Source of the DNA: Streptococcus pneumoniae
GTDB lineage: Bacteria > Bacillota > Bacilli > Lactobacillales > Streptococcaceae
Length of the DNA: 57,206 nucleotides
Assembly (NCBI RefSeq): GCF_001096185.1
Contig: NZ_CRPU01000006.1
Span: forward strand, 1 to 57,206
Reading direction: 5' to 3'
The position numbers and the translations under genes are program-made. The notes under the pieces are model-generated. The model was not told the origin of the DNA. It made no database searches and saw nothing but the letters and a program-made list of their open reading frames with translations. Below are positions 2,138-19,942 of the stretch, one piece after another. Within the stretch, counting starts at the first letter, position 1; every line of letters starts with the position of its first letter.

Positions 2138-4360
2138 ATGCCAAAAGAAGTGAATTTAACAGGCGAAGAAGTTGTCGCTTTAACCAAAGAATATTTAACG
2201 GAAGAGGATGTCCATTTTGTCCATAAGGCCTTGGTCTATGCAGTGGATTGCCATAGTGGTCAATATCGCAAATCAGGCGAGCCTTATATCATTCACCCTA
2301 TCCAAGTGGCAGGGATTTTAGCCAAGCTCAAGCTGGATGCTGTAACGGTAGCTTGTGGTTTCTTGCATGATGTGGTTGAAGATACAGATGCAACCTTGGA
2401 CGATTTGGAAAGAGAGTTTGGTCCTGATGTGCGGGTAATCGTGGATGGGGTTACCAAACTTGGTAAGGTCGAGTACAAATCAATTGAGGAGCAATTAGCG
2501 GAAAATCATCGTAAGATGCTCATGGCCATGTCTGAGGACATCCGCGTTATCTTGGTCAAACTGTCTGACCGCTTGCACAATATGCGGACGCTTAAACATC
2601 TTCGAAAAGACAAGCAGGAGCGCATTTCCAAAGAAACTATGGAAATCTATGCACCTCTTGCTCACCGTCTGGGGATTTCCAGTGTCAAATGGGAATTGGA
2701 AGACCTGTCTTTCCGTTATCTCAATCCGACAGAGTTTTACAAGATTACCCATATGATGAAGGAAAAACGCAGAGAGCGTGAGGCCTTGGTGGATGAGGTA
2801 GTCACAAAATTAGAGGAATATACGACAGATCGTCACTTGAAAGGGAAGATTTACGGTCGTCCCAAGCATATTTACTCGATTTTCCGCAAAATGCAGGATA
2901 AGAGAAAACGGTTTGAGGAAATCTATGACCTGATTGCCATTCGTTGCATTTTGGATACCCAAAGTGATGTTTATGCCATGTTGGGTTATGTGCATGAACT
3001 TTGGAAACCCATGCCTGGCCGCTTCAAAGACTACATCGCTAACCGCAAGGCCAATGGTTATCAGTCTATCCATACGACTGTCTATGGGCCAAAAGGGCCG
3101 ATTGAGTTCCAGATTCGAACTAAAGCCATGCACGAGGTTGCTGAGTACGGGGTTGCGGCTCACTGGGCTTATAAGAAAGGCGTTAAGGGGCAGGTTAACA
3201 GCAAGGAATCAGCTATTGGGATGAACTGGATCAAAGAGATGATGGAGCTCCAAGACCAGGCCGATGATGCTAAAGAATTTGTTGATTCGGTTAAGGAAAA
3301 CTATCTGGCTGAGGAGATTTATGTCTTTACTCCAGATGGAGCTGTTCGTTCCCTTCCAAAAGATTCAGGTCCAATTGACTTTGCCTACGAAATTCATACA
3401 AAGGTTGGTGAAAAAGCGACTGGTGCTAAGGTCAATGGTCGAATGGTTCCACTGACAACCAAGCTCAAGACAGGGGATCAGGTTGAAATTGTTACCAATC
3501 CGAACTCCTTTGGACCGAGCCGTGATTGGCTCAATATGGTTAAGACCAGCAAGGCGCGTAACAAGATTCGTCAGTTCTTTAAAAACCAAGATAAGGAATT
3601 GTCAGTCAATAAGGGTCGTGAGATGCTCATGGCCCAGTTTCAAGAAAACGGCTATGTGGCCAATAAATTCATGGACAAGCGTCACATGGACCAAGTTCTG
3701 CAAAAGACTAGCTATAAAACAGAAGAATCCCTCTTTGCGGCTATTGGTTTTGGAGAAATCGGTGCTATTACCGTCTTTAACCGTCTGACTGAAAAGGAAC
3801 GCCGTGAAGAAGAACGTGCCAAGGCTAAGGCGGAAGCAGAAGAGCTTGTCAAAGGTGGCGAGGTCAAGGTTGAAAATAAAGAAACCCTCAAGGTCAAGCA
3901 TGAGGGTGGTGTGGTCATTGAAGGTGCCTCAGGCCTCCTAGTACGGATTGCCAAGTGTTGTAATCCTGTTCCTGGTGACGATATTGTTGGCTATATTACC
4001 AAGGGTCGTGGTGTGGCTATTCACCGTGTGGACTGTATGAACCTGCGTGCCCAAGAAAACTACGAGCAACGACTTCTTGATGTGGAGTGGGAAGATCAGT
4101 ACTCTAGCTCAAATAAGGAGTATATGGCCCATATCGATATTTACGGCCTCAACCGTACAGGACTGTTGAATGATGTACTGCAAGTTCTTTCAAACACAAC
4201 CAAGAATATTTCAACGGTCAATGCCCAACCAACCAAGGATATGAAGTTTGCCAATATTCATGTTTCCTTCGGTATTGCCAACCTATCTACATTGACCACG
4301 GTCGTGGACAAGATTAAGAGTGTGCCAGAAGTCTATTCTGTCAAACGGACCAACGGTTAA
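2138..4360 (+). CDS. relA: Bifunctional (p)ppGpp synthetase/hydrolase
   Basis: A 740-residue Rel protein of the usual length. It makes (p)ppGpp from GTP/GDP and ATP during amino-acid starvation and hydrolyses it in good conditions. The domains run in order. The HD hydrolase (about 45-200) has HDVVEDTD, and the synthetase (about 240-370) has GRPKHIYSI and [14 protein letters not shown] domain (about 390-455) starts [10 protein letters not shown], a zinc-finger-like segment has IAKCCNP, and the C-terminal ACT domain (about 665-740) has [15 protein letters not shown]. The hydrolase motif is intact, so it should be bifunctional. A 29-bp gap to dtd suggests a shared transcript. The start has a GGAG site 8 bases upstream. 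Confidence 0.97.
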
Positions 4361-4389
4361 TTGCCCTAGCTCTTACTAGAAAGGCTATT

Positions 4390-4833
4390 ATGAAAATCAT
4401 TATCCAACGGGTTACAAAAGCCCAAGTGAGTATCGAAGGTCAGGTTCAGGGAAAAATCAATCAGGGCCTCTTATTGCTGGTTGGTGTAGGACCAGAGGAC
4501 CAAGAGGAAGATTTGGACTATGCTGTGAGAAAGCTTGTCAACATGCGGATTTTTTCAGACGCAGAAGGCAAGATGAACCTGTCTGTCAAAGATATTGAAG
4601 GAGAAATCCTCTCTATTTCTCAGTTTACCCTCTTTGCGGATACTAAGAAAGGCAATCGTCCAGCCTTTACAGGGGCAGCCAAGCCTGATATGGCATCAGA
4701 CTTCTATTACGCTTTCAATCAAAAATTAGCGCAAGAAGTGCCCGTTCAGACAGGCATTTTTGGAGCGGATATGCAGGTTGAGCTGGTCAATGACGGACCC
4801 GTCACCATTATCCTTGATACTAAAAATAGATAA
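4390..4833 (+). CDS. dtd: D-aminoacyl-tRNA deacylase
   Basis: This 147-residue protein removes D-amino acids (and glycine from tRNA-Ala) wrongly attached to tRNA, a proofreading step in the cytoplasm. Visible family signatures are the N-terminal [17 protein letters not shown], the SQFTLFAD motif around residue 77 (the SQxTL catalytic cross-point) and the C-terminal [10 protein letters not shown] (the Gly-Pro motif). The length is standard. It follows relA by 29 bp and ends at a strong terminator, so relA-dtd form an operon, as in many Firmicutes. Confidence 0.97.
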
Positions 4834-4838
4834 GAAAG

Positions 4839-4865
4839 ACCAAGCCCGGCCGGCTTGGTTTTTCT
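4839..4865 (+). terminator. relA-dtd terminator
   Basis: The GC-rich stem ACCAAGCC/GGCTTGGT (4839-4846 and 4852-4859) has a 5-nt loop followed by TTTTT. It sits 5 bp after the dtd stop and lies head-on to the next minus-strand gene, which it may also terminate. Confidence 0.88.
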
Positions 4866-4871
4866 CATCTA

Positions 4872-5285
4872 TTATAAAATACTCCAAAAAGAAATCTGTT
4901 CCTGATAGGCTGTGGGGAAATCTTGTTTCAGGATTTTGCTTATGCGATAGGAAGGGATGAGGTGCCCTAGGATTAGGAGAGTTCCCTGAAGGAAAAGTGG
5001 GACATCACTTAAAAACAGCAAGGAGAGAATCATCAGGCTATCCCATAGAAGGATTTGTAAGGCAAAGCGCCAGAATCTCGGTCTAATCTGGGAATAAAGT
5101 TGACTAAAATGGTCACAAAGTTGGTTAGAAAGATAGGTCAATAGCACAGGATGAAAGAAAATGAGCCAACCGCTATAAATCAAAATCCAGTTCCAAGTAA
5201 GTCCCTCTTTAAATGTCAAAAATGCCAGCATAATTCCATCGATGATAAGGAGTTGAGTGGTTTTGATGGAGATGATTTTTTTCAT
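4872..5285 (-). CDS. Small multi-span membrane protein, paralogue of the next gene
   Basis: It has 137 residues with about four predicted membrane spans: near residues 10-25, 32-52, 75-95 and 98-115. The tail is short and hydrophilic and ends QEQISFWSIL. The neighbour at 5304-5717 has exactly the same length and topology and ends DKHISLWECL, so the two are tandem duplicates that have diverged. They are separated by 18 bp and are probably co-transcribed. I do not recognise a functional family. The lack of charged residues in the spans argues against a transporter of ions. Confidence 0.75.
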   Translation of the reverse strand: MKKIISIKTTQLLIIDGIMLAFLTFKEGLTWNWILIYSGWLIFFHPVLLTYLSNQLCDHFSQLYSQIRPRFWRFALQILLWDSLMILSLLFLSDVPLFLQGTLLILGHLIPSYRISKILKQDFPTAYQEQISFWSIL

Positions 5286-5303
5286 GCTACAACCTCCTTT
5301 CCT

Positions 5304-5717
5304 TTAGAGACATTCCCACAAAGAGATGTGTTTGTCGTAAAAGTCTGGATAGTTTTCTCTTAGGTAGTCAGTTGTCATATAATAAAAAGTAGAATGGCAA
5401 GCAGTGATGATTGGCATAAGAGATGAAAAACGATGAGAACTAACGAAGGCTAAGAGGACAAAAAATAGAAAATCAATGGAGAAAACCCCTAAATAGTAGA
5501 AGCGAATCTTTTTATTGATTTGAGGATAAATCTCAGCGAATTGATTTTTTAGTTGGACGACCAAGCGAAATAGCAGGAGTCCCTGAACAAGGAGGAAAAT
5601 AAAACCATTGAGTAAGAGCCAGTCGAAAGCTGTCTCGGATCTAGTGCTAAAAAATACAAGTAGTAGTAAATCGATAACTGCAATTGCTGTTAAATGGATT
5701 CTAAAGAGATTTTTCAT
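5304..5717 (-). CDS. Small multi-span membrane protein, paralogue of the previous gene
   Basis: It has 137 residues with about four membrane spans. The soluble loop between spans 2 and 3 (VVQLKNQFAEIYPQINKK) matches the loop of the paralogue (YLSNQLCDHFSQLYSQIRP), and both proteins finish with an IS(L/F)W motif. The ribosome binding site GAGGTCATCTT lies directly before ATG 5717. It is the first gene of the two-gene unit. Function unknown. Confidence 0.75.
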   Translation of the reverse strand: MKNLFRIHLTAIAVIDLLLLVFFSTRSETAFDWLLLNGFIFLLVQGLLLFRLVVQLKNQFAEIYPQINKKIRFYYLGVFSIDFLFFVLLAFVSSHRFSSLMPIITACHSTFYYMTTDYLRENYPDFYDKHISLWECL

Positions 5718-5836
5718 AAGATGACCTCCCTCTTTTATCTAGCTTTATTCTACACCAAACGAATGGGAGTTTCAACTAAAATGATAAAAAATTTTAGTAA
5801 GGAGATTCTGATAGATTTCTTTATTTGATTTCCCTC

Positions 5837-6547
5837 TTATTGTTCCACCTCTTCATCATTCCAGACAAATAAAGCTCCGATTGCATTGAGGATGTAAAAG
5901 ATGTATTTTCCGATATTGGCAAAATTTCCTTGAATGCCAGCCTTTGTCAGCTGAACGAAATTGTAAATCAACCAAAAGCCCCACTGAGTTGTTAGTTTCA
6001 ATGCGTTCAAAGCATTGGCAATGAGGGACAGTGCAAAGGCAATAGTTGTTACGTAGGCAAGGAGATTCATCTTGCCCCCATATCCGATATAGTTGGTCAC
6101 AAAGGCAAAGAGGAAGGCGATGATGGAGATGATAATGGCCGCCAATTTTAGCTGTTTCTGACTCATTTGGTTGGGTCTGCCTTCTTGCGAAGCTTCCCAT
6201 TTCTTAATAGCAAAGGTATAAATGAGGAAGGTGACGGGATAGGTAATGATGGCCGCCTTATTTCCAAGGATATAATCAATAGCACCGGACAAAATGGTAT
6301 TAACAATGCCAAAGTAATTTCCCCATTTGCTTAATTTTCCCGTAAAACGAGTGGACAACATGGAAATCCCAACGTTGGTTACGGAAATCAATCCAAAGGG
6401 AACAAGAGCAGTCCATGGGCCCCAGTCTACGAATTTGTCGAGACGGGAGTTGAGGTAACCAGATGCAATTGCAATCCCAACCACCAGAGCAACTCCAAAT
6501 AGGTCAAACCATTTAGATGTAGCAAAAATTTTTAGTGATTTTTTCAT
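5837..6547 (-). CDS. pnuC: Nicotinamide riboside transporter, PnuC family
   Basis: A 236-residue inner-membrane protein with about seven spans. PnuC proteins move nicotinamide riboside by facilitated diffusion, feeding NAD synthesis through a ribosyl kinase. Family features are the aromatic-rich end of the pore, WGFWLIYNFVQLTKAG around residues 185-200, and the last span FYILNAIGALFVWND. The protein is full length. A short inverted repeat TTGT-N5-ACAA (6565-6577) lies in the leader and could be a repressor site. NiaR control of pnuC is known in pneumococci, but I cannot match its consensus here. It is followed by no downstream partner. Confidence 0.85.
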   Translation of the reverse strand: MKKSLKIFATSKWFDLFGVALVVGIAIASGYLNSRLDKFVDWGPWTALVPFGLISVTNVGISMLSTRFTGKLSKWGNYFGIVNTILSGAIDYILGNKAAIITYPVTFLIYTFAIKKWEASQEGRPNQMSQKQLKLAAIIISIIAFLFAFVTNYIGYGGKMNLLAYVTTIAFALSLIANALNALKLTTQWGFWLIYNFVQLTKAGIQGNFANIGKYIFYILNAIGALFVWNDEEVEQ

Positions 6548-6613
6548 AGGTTAAACTATCTTTCTTGTTTTTTACAAACATTCTACAACTAAATGAAAGT
6601 AAAATCAAATGCT

Positions 6614-6648
6614 AGAAATAAAACCCTGAAAATAAAACTTTCAGGGTT
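6614..6648 (-). terminator. psaR terminator
   Basis: On the minus strand AACCCTGAA (6648-6640) pairs perfectly with TTCAGGGTT (6630-6622), followed by TTATTTCTAG. It sits 20 bp after the psaR stop. Confidence 0.78.
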
Positions 6649-6667
6649 GGTTGAGGTACTTGAGAAA

Positions 6668-7318
6668 TTAGTCGATTTTTTCGACATAGAGTTGTTGGGC
6701 AATGTCCATACTTACTTGTAAGTCCTCGTCTCTACTGAGGATAGTGAAGGTATTGCTGAAGCCATCAAACTGCTTGACTTGGAGCGGATCACCGATGTGA
6801 AGGGAGTGCTTGTCCAGATAACTGAGAATGTCAAAACTATCATGCACCCGAGTCAGGCGGTAGGCGCCAGCTTCCTTAATATCAGCTAGTGGCAGGTTAT
6901 TGATTTCAACTAGGAGTTCTCCCTTGGCAGGAATAGTACCTCCGTGGGGGCAGGTCTTGGGGAATCCTAGTAGTTTATCCAGTCTCTCCACGAATAGCTC
7001 AGAGACAGTATGTTCCAAGACCTCAGCTTCCTCGTGAATCTGGTCACTTGTATAGTCTAAATGATGGACTAGAAAAACTTCAATCAAGCGATGCTTACGA
7101 TAGAGCTCAGAGACCAATTTGAGGCCGAGGTCAGTCAGTAGATAGCCACATTCCTTGTCCTTTAGGATGAGGTTTTCACTCTTCATCCGTTTAATCATTT
7201 CAGTTACGGCAGGGGGAGAGACTTGCATGCGGGCCGCAATTTCCTTGTTGGTAATTTTATGCAGGTCTATGCCAATTTCATAAATACACTTTAGATAATC
7301 TTCTTTATTCGGGGTCAT
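6668..7318 (-). CDS. psaR: Manganese-dependent DtxR/MntR-family repressor
   Basis: A 216-residue regulator. The winged helix-turn-helix covers about residues 5-65 (ISNKEIA-like TNKEIAARMQVSPPAVTEMIKR). The metal-binding dimerisation domain follows, with H and E ligands in EVLEHTVSELFVERLDKLLG and CPHGG. The C-terminal FeoA/SH3-like domain ends MDIAQQLYVEKID. In pneumococci PsaR represses psaBCA and surface genes when Mn is high and is relieved by Zn. The protein is complete. Its target operon psaBCA is not in this window. On the minus strand a TTGACA (7358-7353) lies upstream as a likely -35. Confidence 0.9.
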   Translation of the reverse strand: MTPNKEDYLKCIYEIGIDLHKITNKEIAARMQVSPPAVTEMIKRMKSENLILKDKECGYLLTDLGLKLVSELYRKHRLIEVFLVHHLDYTSDQIHEEAEVLEHTVSELFVERLDKLLGFPKTCPHGGTIPAKGELLVEINNLPLADIKEAGAYRLTRVHDSFDILSYLDKHSLHIGDPLQVKQFDGFSNTFTILSRDEDLQVSMDIAQQLYVEKID

Positions 7319-13898: not shown

Positions 13899-14110
13899 AA
13901 AAACAAAAAGCGACATCCTCGAAAGGACGTCGCAACGTGGTTCCACCTTCATTTATGTTCCTCAAAAAAGAGGGACACCTCTGATTGGCTCTAACGTGGC
14001 CACCGTTTTATGTTTTCATAAAAACTCAAGAGTAGTATCAGTTTAGACTTCCTATGCGTTTCCAGCAACCACGCACTCTCTAGTAGAAAGGGACTAAGTG
14101 ACTTGTCTCT
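13899..14110 (-). ncRNA. T-box leader of thrS
   Basis: The conserved T-box sequence AGGTGGAACCACG is on the minus strand at 13948-13936. It overlaps an intrinsic terminator stem GCGACGTCC/GGATGTCGC (13933-13910) followed by TTTTTGTTTTTC. Further upstream, in stem I, TGATACTACTC (14040-14030) offers ACT, a threonine codon, followed by A as a specifier. Uncharged tRNA-Thr binding the specifier and the T-box should favour the antiterminator and turn thrS on during threonine starvation. Confidence 0.93.
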
Positions 14111-14116
14111 ATGGAT

Positions 14117-14145
14117 TATTATAGCATGATTGTGAGATTTTTCAA
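14117..14145 (-). promoter_or_regulatory. thrS T-box promoter
   Basis: On the minus strand TTGAAA (14145-14140), a 17-bp spacer and TATAAT (14122-14117), with TGC before the -10. This is a near-consensus promoter giving a start near 14110 and a leader of about 290 nt. Confidence 0.85.
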
Positions 14146-14637: not shown

Positions 14638-14721
14638 TGTCGTAAAGACAAATAACTTCTTCTTGGTTACAGGCATGCCAACCTGTCACTCGGATGAAGC
14701 CAAATAAAAAGGAGAAACATC
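14638..14721 (+). promoter_or_regulatory. rpsO 5' leader, probable S15 autoregulatory element
   Basis: The 85-nt leader contains stem-forming segments: GTCGTAAAGAC at the start, and ACAGG...CCTGT around GCATGCCAA. S15 represses its own translation through leader RNA structures in many bacteria. The presence of structure and the gene identity support this, but I cannot match a specific S15-leader class by eye. Confidence 0.45.
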
Positions 14722-14991
14722 ATGGCAATCTCAAAAGAGAAAAAAAATGAAATCATCGCACAATATGCACGTCACGAAGGTGATACAGGTTCAGTAGAGG
14801 TTCAAGTTGCTGTCCTTACTTGGGAAATCAACCACCTTAACGAACACATCAAACAACACAAAAAAGACCACGCTACTTACCGTGGATTGATGAAAAAAAT
14901 CGGTCGCCGTCGTAACTTGCTTGCATACTTGCGTAAAAACGACGTTAACCGTTACCGTGAGTTGATCAACTCTCTAGGACTTCGTCGCTAA
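14722..14991 (+). CDS. rpsO: 30S ribosomal protein S15
   Basis: It has 89 residues, the universal length. S15 binds the 16S rRNA central domain and nucleates the platform of the small subunit. The signatures [26 protein letters not shown] and the basic [12 protein letters not shown] followed by YRELI are complete. AAAGGAG lies 8 bases before the ATG. Single-gene transcript. Confidence 0.98.
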
Positions 14992-16196: not shown

Positions 16197-16231
16197 CTCA
16201 AATCAGCTCTCTGATTTTCAGAGGGCTTTTT
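16197..16231 (+). terminator. cadD terminator, right copy of the 31-bp repeat
   Basis: Identical over 31 bp to 15169-15199. Stem AGCTCTCTGA/TCAGAGGGCT, 3-nt loop, then TTTTT. It lies 33 bp after the cadD stop. The two copies bracket a segment of about 1.0 kb that holds cadD and its control region. Confidence 0.85.
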
Positions 16232-16320: not shown

Positions 16321-16349
16321 TTGTTCCATTGTTGAAAATATGGTATACT
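16321..16349 (+). promoter_or_regulatory. Promoter of the siderophore-type transport operon
   Basis: TTGTTC (16321-16326), 17 bp, TATACT (16344-16349) with TGG in front (extended -10). The arms TGAAAA (16333-16338) and TTTTCA (16349-16354) make a 22-bp dyad across the -10, and GAGAATTTTC follows. An iron-responsive repressor site is plausible but matches no consensus that I can confirm. Confidence 0.6.
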
Positions 16350-16398
16350 TTTCATGAGAATTTTCTAAATTTTTAAGATTCTATCAAAGGAGGTTTGC

Positions 16399-17445
16399 AT
16401 GCTTTCCAAATTTTCTGGAAGCCGACAAGACCAGCAATTTGTGTTACTTTTAGTTATTTTGCTAGGTATTTTAGGGATTTCTCTCTTTCTAGCAGTTTCT
16501 ATGGGATCTGTTGCAATTGATCTAGGAGATACCTATCGGATTATTTTGAGCAGGTTAGGATTTCCTCTTGAGATAGGAGAGGTTTCCAAGTCCACTCTTG
16601 CCATTGTATGGAACATGAGATTCCCTCGAGTATTGTTAGGTCTGATAGTAGGAGCAGGCCTTTCTATGTGTGGTAGCGTAATGCAGTCTACAGTGAACAA
16701 TCCCATCGCAGAGCCTTATGTCTTAGGAATATCTGCGGGTGCAACTCTAGGAGCAACCTTGAGCATCATTCTTGGTTTAAAAGTGATGATTAGCCTTGGA
16801 GCTTTTCTTGGAGCTATTTTGGCAACAATTGCTGTCCTCATCATTGCCTCTATGCAGGGAAGGATGACTACTTCCAGTCTGATTTTATCAGGAACGGTGG
16901 TCAACGCTCTCTTTCTGGCTTTTTCCAACTTTATTATCTCAGTTGGTGCTAATGCGGATAGTGTGATGACCATTAAGTTTTGGACTATGGGCTCGCTCGC
17001 TGGGACTTCCTGGGCAGACTTGGTCCTGCCAACCATAGTAGTAGGAATGGCCTTTCTATTTTTCTCTACTCAGTATCGTGTTTTTAATGCGATGATGATG
17101 GGAGATGAGGCTGCTTTAACTTTGGGGATTCCCTTACGCTTTTATTGGTATCTTTATGTGACCATGGTGGCTGTGCTGACAGCAGTCTTAGTGGCAACCT
17201 GTGGGATTATTGGATTTGTCGGTCTGATTACTCCACATTTAGCTCGAGGGTTAGTAGGAACGAATTATAAGAGGCTTTTTCCTGTTGCAACCTTGCTAGG
17301 TGCCCTCTTTGTCATCTGGGCAGACGTACTCTCTCGTATCATCATTCCAAACGCAGAGCTTCCTATTGGTATTTTCACAGCCTTAGTAGGTGCTCCCTTC
17401 TTTATCTACATTGTTGGAGGTAGGCGAAGGGAGGTGAGGGTCTGA
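16399..17445 (+). CDS. FecCD/BtuC-type ABC transporter permease
   Basis: It has 348 residues and about nine to ten spans. The family fingerprint RFPRVLLGLIVGAGL, then VMQSTVNNPIAEPYVLGISAGA (about residues 95-118), and the C-terminal ATCGIIGFVGLITPHLAR (ATPase contact helix) identify the permease of iron-siderophore/heme/cobalamin importers. A single permease gene implies a homodimer. AAAGGAGG lies before ATG. It is followed with a 1-bp gap by the ATPase. The set is additional to the pneumococcal iron importers I recall (piu, pia, pit), and this site between cadD and the acyltransferase gene is empty in the reference strains as I remember them. Confidence 0.92.
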   Translation: MLSKFSGSRQDQQFVLLLVILLGILGISLFLAVSMGSVAIDLGDTYRIILSRLGFPLEIGEVSKSTLAIVWNMRFPRVLLGLIVGAGLSMCGSVMQSTVNNPIAEPYVLGISAGATLGATLSIILGLKVMISLGAFLGAILATIAVLIIASMQGRMTTSSLILSGTVVNALFLAFSNFIISVGANADSVMTIKFWTMGSLAGTSWADLVLPTIVVGMAFLFFSTQYRVFNAMMMGDEAALTLGIPLRFYWYLYVTMVAVLTAVLVATCGIIGFVGLITPHLARGLVGTNYKRLFPVATLLGALFVIWADVLSRIIIPNAELPIGIFTALVGAPFFIYIVGGRRREVRV

Positions 17446-17446
17446 T

Positions 17447-18202
17447 ATGGACTTGATTTGTCAGGATGTCCACTTTGGACTGGGAGAGAAAAAAATCCTC
17501 AAGGGAGTTTCTCTTAAAGTTGAAGGGAATCAATTTCACACGATACTAGGACCAAATGGAAGTGGAAAAACCAGTCTACTTAAACTCCTCTATCGTCAGG
17601 AAAAGGCGGACAAAGGCTTGATAAGCCTAGATGGGAATCCTCTGGAACAATGGACGCTCAAAGAAACAGCCAAGCAAATGGCAGTTGTGACCCAGTTTAA
17701 CCAACTGCAGTTTGATTGTACAGTTGAAGAAATCGTCTTGCTGGGAAGAACTCCCCACCTCTCTTTTTTACAGAAGGAAAGAGAAAGAGATTTTACACTC
17801 GTTCAAGATGCCCTCGTTAAGGTGGATATGCTCGAGAAGAAAACTCGTCTCTATTCGTCCCTGTCAGGGGGAGAGAAACAGCGAGTTTTGTTAGCCCGCG
17901 CCTTGGCGCAAGAACCGACTCTCTTGCTCCTAGACGAACCAACCAATCACCTGGATATCAGGTATCAGCTAGACTTGTTAGCCATTGTGAAAAATCTCAA
18001 GGTCAATGTTCTAGCTGTCCTGCATGATATTCAACTTGCTTGTCGCTATTCGGATTATCTCTATCTGATGAAAGAGGGAGAAATCCTTTACCAAGGAACT
18101 CCAAAGGAGACCATTACCCCTGAGTCATTGCAAACTGTATACGGAGTTCAAAGTCAGGTTACTTGGACCGAGGATCAGCAAGCTATGATTCACTATTTAT
18201 AA
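17447..18202 (+). CDS. ABC transporter ATPase, FecE/FhuC type
   Basis: It has 251 residues. Walker A GPNGSGKTS (about 35-43), Q-loop VTQFNQ, signature SLSGGEKQRVLLARALAQ (LSGGE), Walker B LLLLDEPTNHLD and switch His VLHDIQLA. All the catalytic elements are intact. It powers the permease directly upstream (1-bp gap) and is followed by the binding lipoprotein 19 bp downstream. Confidence 0.95.
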   Translation: MDLICQDVHFGLGEKKILKGVSLKVEGNQFHTILGPNGSGKTSLLKLLYRQEKADKGLISLDGNPLEQWTLKETAKQMAVVTQFNQLQFDCTVEEIVLLGRTPHLSFLQKERERDFTLVQDALVKVDMLEKKTRLYSSLSGGEKQRVLLARALAQEPTLLLLDEPTNHLDIRYQLDLLAIVKNLKVNVLAVLHDIQLACRYSDYLYLMKEGEILYQGTPKETITPESLQTVYGVQSQVTWTEDQQAMIHYL

Positions 18203-18221
18203 GAATGAAAAGGAAAACAAG

Positions 18222-19232
18222 ATGAAAAAAACACTCAGTATTTTACTCGTAACAGTAGCTACCCTAACCATGGCAGCTTGTGGCAATACTACTACAGAAA
18301 AAGCTACCACACAATCTAGCACAGAAACAAGTCAAAAGGCGAGCACAGAGACGACTTATCCACTAACGGTCAAAACCTATGATGCTAAAGGGAATGAAGT
18401 TGAACAAGTTTTTGACAAGGCACCTGAAAAAGTTATCACCAACAATCTTTCAACCACTGAAATCTTATTGGAGTTAGGCTTGAAGGATAAAATTGCTGGC
18501 ATGCTTAACCCAGACAATGCTGTGACGGACAAATACAAGGATGCGATTGCGACGATTCCTCAAATTGGGGATAAAAAAACAGTCTCACAAGAGACAGTCC
18601 TTTCTTATGAGCCAGACGCTGTGATGGGTAGAAACATGATGTTTTCTGAAAAATCCTTGGGGACAGTTAGCACTTGGAATGAAAACAAAATCCCAGTTTA
18701 TACGCAAAAAGCTTCTCTCTCAACGATTCAGCAAGATTTGGAAAATATCGTAGAAGATGTCAAAAATCTGGGAATGATTTTTAATGTTCAGGAAAAGTCC
18801 AATGAATACGCAGCCCAATTACAAACTAAAATTGACGCTGTTAAGAAAGCAAACCCAGCAAGTCAAGGTGAAAAGAAAAAGGCTTTGATTATGGTTGCTT
18901 ATAATGATGAAACCTTCGGTGCCTACAAGTCTGCTTTGCAAGAGAGCCTGCTCAATCAACTTGGTTATACAAACGTTGCTACGGGGACATCAGGCTTGAC
19001 CTTGGAAAATCTTGTGTCAATGGATCCTGAATTGATTATCTATGTAACCAGCGATCGCAATAAAAAATTGGATGAAAAAGCAGTAGAGTTGATGAAGGCA
19101 AATGCTGTTTTGGAAAGCGTTCCTGCTATTAAGAATCAAAAAATCATGACTATCTCTTACGATGAGTTGATGGATTATGGTCCAGCAGTGATTGATTCCC
19201 TTGAGAAAATCAATGACTTTATCAATAAATAA
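18222..19232 (+). CDS. Siderophore-type substrate-binding lipoprotein
   Basis: It has 336 residues. Signal peptide and lipobox: MKKTLSILLVTVATLTMAAC, lipidated Cys at 20, then a Thr/Ser linker. The mature part is a PF01497 (TroA/BtuF-like) fold: AYDAKG-like TYDAKGNEVEQVF, VITNNLSTTEILLELGLKDKIAGM, then TVLSYEPDAVMG, the long helical linker, and YDELMDYGPAVIDSLEKI at the end. These proteins catch ferric siderophores, heme or cobalamin outside the membrane. The ligand cannot be read from sequence, but the downstream esterase favours a siderophore. Confidence 0.92.
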   Translation: MKKTLSILLVTVATLTMAACGNTTTEKATTQSSTETSQKASTETTYPLTVKTYDAKGNEVEQVFDKAPEKVITNNLSTTEILLELGLKDKIAGMLNPDNAVTDKYKDAIATIPQIGDKKTVSQETVLSYEPDAVMGRNMMFSEKSLGTVSTWNENKIPVYTQKASLSTIQQDLENIVEDVKNLGMIFNVQEKSNEYAAQLQTKIDAVKKANPASQGEKKKALIMVAYNDETFGAYKSALQESLLNQLGYTNVATGTSGLTLENLVSMDPELIIYVTSDRNKKLDEKAVELMKANAVLESVPAIKNQKIMTISYDELMDYGPAVIDSLEKINDFINK

Positions 19233-19905
19233 TGAGTTTGATTGGGAAGGAATTCAAGTCAAAATCAGCCTTCCCTCTAACTACGACTCCAATCAAACCT
19301 ATCCGGCTATTTTATTGAATGATGGGGACTTGGACTTCCTATCGTCCCTTTCCGAATCTGTGATTTTAGTGGGCTTGACCTCTAAAAATCGCTTAGATGA
19401 CTACACTCCCTGGGCAACATCAGCTCTGAGAGATGGAGCTCCAGATTTTGGCGGTCAGGCAAATGCCTATCATGGTCATTTATTTGGTGGTCTTTTAGAC
19501 AGGTTGCAGTCGCTTTATCGCCTGGACAAAAATCGCCTTGCCTATGGGGGCTACTCACTAGGTGGATTGGCTGCTGTATACAGTCTTTTCCGTTTTGATA
19601 AGGTCTCCTGTATCTTCTCTATCTGTGGTTCCTTTTGGTATCCTGATTTTGTGACTTACTGCAAGGAAGAAAATGTGAAAAATTTGGACTGTTTGCTGTA
19701 TTTACAGAATGGTCAAACAGAAGGAGTCAATCATAGCAATCGCTTGGCTCAAGCACCAGTCTATGCTGAGCAGATCCATATCAGTCTTCAGAAACGCTAT
19801 CCGAACGGTCAGTTTGTCTTTGATCCTTATGGACACCACGAACAAGTAGCTGAACGATTTCTAGCTTTTTCTAGCTGGTTGGCCCAAAAATGGAAAATCG
19901 AATAA
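19213..19905 (+). CDS. Putative siderophore esterase (Fes/IroE/BesA-like alpha/beta hydrolase)
   Basis: It has 230 residues and no signal peptide, so it is cytoplasmic. The nucleophile elbow is GGYSLGGLAAVYS (G-Y-S-L-G, about residue 118), the late His is GHHEQVAERF (about 215), and the N-terminal part ISLPSNYDSNQTYPAILLNDGD fits the PF00756 esterase family. This family includes the trilactone esterases that cut ferric enterobactin, salmochelin or bacillibactin to free iron. The start at ATG 19213 overlaps the lipoprotein gene by 20 bp. A TTG at 19192 is a less likely start. The operon context makes release of iron from an imported ester siderophore the best guess. Confidence 0.82.
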   Translation: MTLSINNEFDWEGIQVKISLPSNYDSNQTYPAILLNDGDLDFLSSLSESVILVGLTSKNRLDDYTPWATSALRDGAPDFGGQANAYHGHLFGGLLDRLQSLYRLDKNRLAYGGYSLGGLAAVYSLFRFDKVSCIFSICGSFWYPDFVTYCKEENVKNLDCLLYLQNGQTEGVNHSNRLAQAPVYAEQIHISLQKRYPNGQFVFDPYGHHEQVAERFLAFSSWLAQKWKIE

Positions 19906-19912
19906 AAGAGTT

Positions 19913-19942
19913 ATCCCTTGGCTTTTGCCAAGGGATTGTTGT
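19913..19942. terminator. Terminator closing the siderophore-type operon
   Basis: The perfect 10-bp stem ATCCCTTGGC/GCCAAGGGAT (19913-19922, 19927-19936) with loop TTTT is followed by TGTTGTATTT. It also serves the convergent acyltransferase gene. Confidence 0.82.

Follow-up and report, generated by a model that had tools for sequence, protein, structure and literature searches.

Four tightly packed genes in a contig deposited as Streptococcus pneumoniae (NZ_CRPU01000006.1; "the window" is the whole stretch analysed, 57,206 nucleotides) probably serve to import an ester-containing Fe(III) xenosiderophore and to hydrolyse it, a reading to which we give a probability of about two in three. A preliminary description of this DNA had already tied a xenosiderophore importer to an intracellular esterase of the trilactone type, and this remains the best-supported reading on account of co-occurrence, the linkage of 45 of 57 esterase homologues to transporter genes, the esterase tree and the conserved residues. 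The gene set itself is already known: the operon is SM12261_0576-9 of S. mitis, listed by Kilian and Tettelin (2019, PMC6722419) as 'Iron chelate uptake ABC transporter (FeCT family) ... and putative esterase', with proteins of 348, 251, 336 and 230 amino acids (aa), and as listed there neither genes nor sizes differ from those of the window. That comparison gives frequencies of 100% in S. mitis and S. oralis and 0% in S. pseudopneumoniae and S. infantis, finds the genes in none of 13 S. pneumoniae strains compared, and assigns them to hemin transport without a reported test beside the assignment. It agrees with the preliminary claim that the locus is missing from pneumococcus and withdraws part of the novelty claimed for it: the gene set was published in 2019 as commensal-specific and as hemin transport, while no test of the siderophore and esterase role was found in print. 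Among the open-licence papers listed, no experimental study of the operon was found. New here are the assigned role, the linkage just mentioned, the exact co-occurrence of esterase and binding protein, and an Arg/Trp split among binding proteins.

Four genes that travel together

The order and spacing first described for the operon are confirmed by the coordinates of the open reading frames (ORFs): 1 base pair (bp) separates permease and ATPase, 19 bp separate ATPase and lipoprotein, and the lipoprotein and esterase genes overlap by 20 bp. The genes and the codons discussed below are:

16399-17445, + strand: permease of the FecCD/BtuC family, 348 aa (ORF, Pfam and NCBIfam)
17447-18202, + strand: ATP-binding cassette (ABC) ATPase, 251 aa (ORF, Pfam and NCBIfam)
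18222-19232, + strand: lipoprotein substrate-binding protein, Peripla_BP_2, 336 aa, lipobox Cys20 read by eye (ORF and Pfam)
18630-18632, + strand: Arg137 codon of the binding protein, invariant in 25 of 25 streptococcal rows
19213-19905, + strand: alpha/beta-hydrolase esterase of the YbbA/IroE/Fes kind, 230 aa, from ATG 19213 (ORF, Pfam, trees and alignment)
19555-19557, + strand: Ser115 codon, proposed nucleophile (GYSLGG), conserved in alignments
19720-19722, + strand: Glu170 codon, proposed triad partner, conserved in alignments
19837-19839, + strand: His209 codon, proposed triad partner, conserved in alignments

All four products exceed their Pfam cut-offs (FecCD 2.1e-82, ABC_tran 1.2e-34, Peripla_BP_2 5e-25, Esterase 1.7e-9), the esterase with 38.3 bits for PF00756 against a cut-off of 22. 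A FecCD permease, an ABC ATPase and a Peripla_BP_2 protein are present together, as in a type III (FecCD/BtuCD-type) ABC importer, and because the operon holds a single permease gene the permease is presumed to form a homodimer. The longest ORF of the fourth gene begins at TTG 19192; the start at ATG 19213 was used for the 230-aa protein.

A scan of named genomes returned 47 loci, all in Streptococcus (mitis, oralis, pseudopneumoniae-titled, sanguinis, cristatus and others). All four genes are matched in operon order in 46 of them, some only in part (L026, L032, L036; L numbers denote loci of this analysis), and the remaining locus, L018, has no permease match. Within the aligned parts, identity to the window is 90-95% for 37 of these loci, from mitis, oralis and their relatives, and about 70% for the 10 sanguinis and cristatus loci. 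The 20-nucleotide overlap of binding-protein and esterase genes is identical in 47 of 47 loci, and against 20 chosen mitis-group loci the median ratios of nonsynonymous to synonymous substitution are 0.056 for the permease, 0.086 for the ATPase, 0.068 for the binding protein and 0.161 for the esterase, so that all four genes look to be under purifying selection. Together, the shared overlap and this selection indicate that the four-gene arrangement is not a product of chance. The esterase (E <= 1e-10) and the binding protein (E <= 1e-30) occur in an identical 99 of 247 Streptococcus genomes, the two lists being compared by eye, and at these thresholds the esterase never occurs apart from the binding protein. 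Three of the 99 operon-bearing genomes have a broken binding-protein gene (G063, G108, G160), and two a broken esterase gene (G108, G160). Four records titled S. pseudopneumoniae (L025, L026, L028, L035) carry the operon, as against the published frequency of 0% (PMC6722419); these records may be misnamed.

A profile built from ten streptococcal esterases matched 56 of 348 Bacilli genomes, and all 57 non-streptococcal Bacilli matches listed at E <= 1e-12 were fetched. Of these, 45 lie within 1.2 kilobases (kb) of a type III binding-protein or FecCD permease gene, as called with local profiles made from sequences of this analysis, and 12 do not; the 57 span 12 genera, several of them counted repeatedly, and so are not independent, and the rate for a random gene is guessed at a few per cent. 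In a 20-row tree, the streptococcal pair and enzymes from Feu-type operons are split from a BesA-like pair with support of 100/100, the label 'BesA-like' resting on the match of L107 to BES (2.9e-56). We propose a Ser-acid-His triad of Ser115, Glu170 and His209 from the alignments: all three residues are invariant in 30 of 30 streptococcal rows and, with Gly113, Thr65 and Pro66, identical in 19 of 19 rows of the family (Trp67 in 18). No signal peptide was seen by eye in the esterase, which should therefore be cytoplasmic. AlphaFold2 models were of low confidence (mean predicted local distance difference test scores of 46.9 for the binding protein and 57.6 for the esterase), and were set aside without any claim about pocket or fold.

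Two further sets of loci carry this esterase. In 10 of the 13 genomes of family f150 (L106, L108, L110, L113, L201-L204, L218, L224), a siderophore-type binding-protein gene is no more than 1 kb away from it; four of those binding proteins were scanned, and no permease match appeared within the 5-12.5 kb retrieved. In L116 (another family of the same order), positions 4200-7071 hold an intact esterase gene beside a decayed permease, short ATPase-like and binding-protein-like traces and an ORF resembling a flavohemoprotein reductase. The L116 permease joins Streptococcus at 96/98 in a 16-row tree with Feu permeases, and at 92/92 with a long-branch warning when 14 further rows replace these, while its esterase groups elsewhere. 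The pairing of transporter and esterase may predate Streptococcus, but the tree support is not firm, and we set the remnant aside as proof of an old pairing.

Proposed mechanism, cargo and competing explanations

In the mechanism that we propose, the lipoprotein would bind the extracellular Fe(III)-siderophore, which would then be carried inward by the ATPase and a permease that is probably homodimeric. The cytoplasmic serine esterase, through Ser115, Glu170 and His209, would cleave the ester bonds of the siderophore backbone, after which the iron would be reduced and released by enzymes encoded elsewhere. The likeliest cargo would be a catecholate trilactone of the enterobactin type, and we hold a catechol trilactone to be somewhat short of an even bet. 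The enterobactin-, salmochelin- or bacillibactin-like siderophores named in the preliminary description are candidates. Oral Rothia would be a plausible source, as R. mucilaginosa makes enterobactin (PMC7190385). The preliminary statement that no siderophore synthesis gene is present holds for the two classes sought in the window's own genome, where we found neither a nonribosomal peptide synthetase condensation domain (4 of 14 control genomes positive) nor IucA/IucC (2 of 14).

Several observations weigh against this proposal. The branch leading to the streptococcal esterase is long (3.06 in the 20-row tree), and the sequence matches of this enzyme to siderophore esterases of solved structure are weak and partial (IroE-like hydrolase 1.9e-6, BES 3.6e-5, enterochelin esterase 0.003). 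It misses the cut-off of the NCBIfam equivalog model for enterochelin esterase, at 27.8 against 222 bits; the Feu-operon-like esterase of L114 also falls below it (48.1), so this branch may need a broader model. The binding protein has a net charge of -10, with just two Arg and no His after residue 44; known catecholate binders are unlike this, and such a charge is unexpected where the ligand is triply negative. The transporter does not resemble FeuABC, and cobalamin riboswitches lie near five of the six members of a related transporter clade, described below. In growth tests with 100 µM enterobactin and 1 µM added iron, results were mixed: the ligand lowered the growth of S. oralis ATCC 35037 and did not significantly change that of S. 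sanguinis ATCC 49296, and the growth of S. gordonii and S. salivarius was raised in the absence of catalase (all PMC7190385). At the level of the species, S. oralis carries the operon (named records, and 100% in PMC6722419). Finally, serum is reported to have left the iron-utilization genes of S. mitis unchanged (PMC10269507).

The published role of the four genes, hemin transport (PMC6722419), would make the operon a heme importer and leave the esterase with an unconnected job. The nearest NCBIfam models of the ATPase are heme and F420-0 models, all below cut-offs, the best being a heme ATPase (235.2 bits, cut-off 261), and PDB relatives include heme permeases and heme-binding proteins. Yet no heme model reaches its cut-off for any operon protein among the matches listed (for the ATPase, the best 25 of 189), and the binding protein is devoid of His after residue 44. 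In addition, the overlapped esterase never occurs without the binding protein in 247 genomes, and its relatives cluster with siderophore-type transporter genes in 45 of 57 cases. To our knowledge, such an esterase has no role in heme release, and heme import seems to us clearly improbable. We give even less credence to an esterase that merely shares the transcript and acts on another substrate, for instance by disarming siderophore-linked antibiotics or by hydrolysing esters from the diet or the host. In its favour, relatives of the L114 homologue include feruloyl esterases, 12 of the 57 Bacilli homologues lack a transporter gene in the surrounding 1.2 kb, and the streptococcal esterase evolves faster than the other three genes; against this, in the 247 Streptococcus genomes and at the thresholds used, the esterase is always accompanied by the binding protein. 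A modest chance attaches to the same design with a different cargo, an ester-linked hydroxamate of the fusarinine or triacetylfusarinine type or another ester siderophore. Among the PDB relatives of L107 and L114, both Bacilli homologues, are fungal triacetylfusarinine C esterases, and because the PiuA-like protein of the same genome is of a type that already handles catecholates (PMC9218516), a second system might serve something else. The streptococcal esterase, in contrast, has no match to the fungal enzymes at thresholds of 0.1 and 0.01, and it groups with Feu-operon enzymes, whose published role concerns enterobactin: in the B. subtilis sporulation response, ybbA is required for enterobactin and besA for bacillibactin (PMC5411514).

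A corrinoid (vitamin B12) importer would account for the nearest NCBIfam models of the permease, F420-0 and BtuC, all of which score below cut-offs. S. sanguinis has cobalamin genes. Relatives of the transporter beyond the genus were sought in the phylum (8 of 398 genomes, the window's own included) and in the order (38 of 217, of which 32 are non-Streptococcus); 20 of the 34 places in these 32 genomes were fetched. No cobalamin riboswitch was seen in any of the 21 loci of clade 1 (L066-L068, L070, L151-L167), whereas one lies nearby in five of the six loci of clade 2 (L071, L072, L073, L168 and L169 of L071-L073 and L168-L170), in L073 about 2.5 kb ahead of the binding-protein gene. Position 137 of the binding protein divides these groups: Streptococcus and 21 of 21 riboswitch-free relatives have Arg there, 6 of 6 members of the cobalamin clade have Trp, and from its place in the sequence we infer that this residue lines the cleft. 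Trp152 is common to Streptococcus and the cobalamin clade, while Tyr313 and Tyr319 are common to Streptococcus and the riboswitch-free clade. Trees of the transporter are less telling. An unrooted concatenated tree places Streptococcus alone on a long branch (0.88), which leaves room for a B12 importer; in a 30-row permease tree with midpoint root, the cobalamin clade separates from every other row, those of Streptococcus among them (99/99), which speaks against one but is not decisive, and the branching of the rest is not resolved. Given the long branch and the unsettled position of Streptococcus, we did not treat transporter phylogeny as a judge of cargo. The hallmarks sought for cobalamin import were not seen: the cut-off for the B12-binding domain (PF02310) is passed in none of 247 Streptococcus genomes, four having scores below it (12 of 14 controls positive), and there is no cobalamin riboswitch in the window's own genome (8 of 14 controls positive) or near the operon; B12 enzymes without that domain were not sought. 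Taken together, corrinoid import appears very unlikely.

Relatives, known systems and host genome

One of the closest known systems is B. subtilis btr-feuABC-ybbA, for enterobactin and bacillibactin uptake with the YbbA esterase, which we compared through L114, L115 and L117, loci that we take to resemble it. Both join a type III binding protein, a FecCD permease and a single-domain esterase in one cluster, and their esterases have the Ser, Glu and His residues and RxxDYTPW-type motifs in common. The L114 cluster includes two permease genes and a gene for an AraC-type regulator that carries a binding-protein domain, but lacks an ATPase gene; the streptococcal operon, by contrast, encodes a single permease and an ATPase of its own without a regulator, and its permease falls outside both the FeuB and the FeuC branch of the FecCD permeases that are paired in FeuABC-YbbA. 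Like the pneumococcal Piu system (PiuBCDA), a PiuA-like protein of which is encoded in the same genome, the operon would be a streptococcal ABC importer for iron on the catechols of others. PiuA is reported to bind tetradentate Fe(III)-catecholates, for example an enterobactin hydrolysis product; the binding-protein type differs from that of the operon, and the word 'esterase' is absent from the main text of the Piu report (PMC9218516). BtuFCD-like cobalamin importers and the putative F420-0 family provide the best NCBIfam models for the permease and near-best ones for the ATPase; the operon differs from them in its scores below cut-offs, Arg rather than Trp at position 137, the lack of a riboswitch and the added esterase.

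The related importers of the order have other neighbours. An esterase of this profile was found in 0 of the 20 fetched order loci among the genes adjoining the transporter. A gene resembling ferredoxin-NADP reductase adjoins the transporter in 7 of 17 Lactobacillales members of clade 1 (L152, L155, L156, L158, L160, L164, L166); the L152 protein matches PDB 5twb at 8.3e-80, other ferredoxin-NADP reductases matching better, and 5twb is S. aureus IruO. These IruO-like neighbours suggest reductive in place of hydrolytic iron release in related Lactobacillales importers. A nitroreductase gene stands beside the transporter in L159, L161 and L163. In clade 2, a methyltransferase gene lies beside the BtuFCD-like importer in L072 (6713-7783), L168 (3663-4613), L169 (3296-4261) and L170 (3193-4275); the first three of these methyltransferases have a rubredoxin domain and a cobalamin riboswitch at the locus, and L170 has neither a rubredoxin match nor the riboswitch. 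These four loci look like an unnamed corrinoid-linked operon.

The preliminary description had placed the operon in a pneumococcus with the piu, pia and pit systems, and this setting did not hold. The window's own assembly (GCF_001096185.1) encodes two Peripla_BP_2 proteins: the operon lipoprotein and one that matches PDB 4jcc at 1.7e-170, with CeuE and YclQ among its lesser PDB matches, which we take to be PiuA. PiaA belongs to this family, and no third, PiaA-like member is among the Peripla_BP_2 proteins of this genome. Four iron-transport genes are described as S. pneumoniae markers (PMC7248185), and SP_1032-1035 as unique to that species (PMC6722419). With pia given as pneumococcus-specific and no third binding protein present, the window does not come from a typical pneumococcus; its genome is mitis-group commensal-like. 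The ORF downstream of the operon, on the opposite strand, is presumably an acyltransferase. The preliminary description took the site to be empty in reference strains; in the 30 operon-negative Streptococcus genomes (of 148) searched for such an empty site, the identity of this neighbour is at most 88%, so none of the 30 resembles pneumococcus.

Operon borders and iron economy

The operon is bounded as follows:

16205-16227, + strand: terminator-like hairpin 3' of cadD, upstream border (pattern scan)
16321-16349, + strand: probable sigma-70 promoter, TTGTTC-17-TATACT with extended -10 (TGG) (by eye)
16359-16373, + strand: CodY-box-like site, 12 of 15 positions matching, between promoter and start codon (a lead)
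19913-19936, both directions: terminator-like hairpin, downstream border (pattern scan)

Since terminator-like hairpins flank it on both sides, the operon is probably transcribed as a unit of its own, from a plausible promoter. In the pattern scan, which did not return this promoter, the region has 9 terminator-like sites where 3.6 are expected; the promoter columns CTTG and ATG.TATA are mostly conserved in the aligned mitis-group and sanguinis/cristatus loci, among the alignment parts listed. Control by CodY was set aside, as the window has 11 sites with at most three mismatches against 8.1 expected, a number not above chance. The site is retained as a lead because of its position and conservation, and in most sanguinis/cristatus loci it is nearer to the consensus (13 of 15 by eye). 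The upstream neighbour of the operon is a cadD-family gene (Pfam), preceded by an ORF read by eye as ribosomal protein S15. An S15 leader match lies near this ORF (14662-14778; 31.6 bits, below the cut-off of 39.5), and a T-box leader match, clipped at the stretch end, at 14000-14122 (46.1 bits, below the cut-off of 93).

It is tempting to speculate, as a tentative scenario that we regard as doubtful in its full form, that oral commensal streptococci pirate the trilactone siderophore of a neighbour, probably the enterobactin of Rothia, with a transporter recruited from a BtuCD-like family and a hydrolytic enzyme where some related Lactobacillales operons have an IruO-like reductase. Pneumococcus would lack this route and have Pia instead, as part of a split in iron economy between commensals and pathogen. 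If import and hydrolysis of a foreign siderophore is the true role of the operon, streptococci would have a dedicated hydrolytic route to iron from siderophores made by others, and the published hemin annotation would be corrected. Such a route would help to explain how these bacteria, lacking the siderophore synthesis genes that were sought, coexist with Rothia and other producers. It would also turn a gene set that is not itself new into a test case for how the iron supply of commensal streptococci differs from that of pneumococcus.

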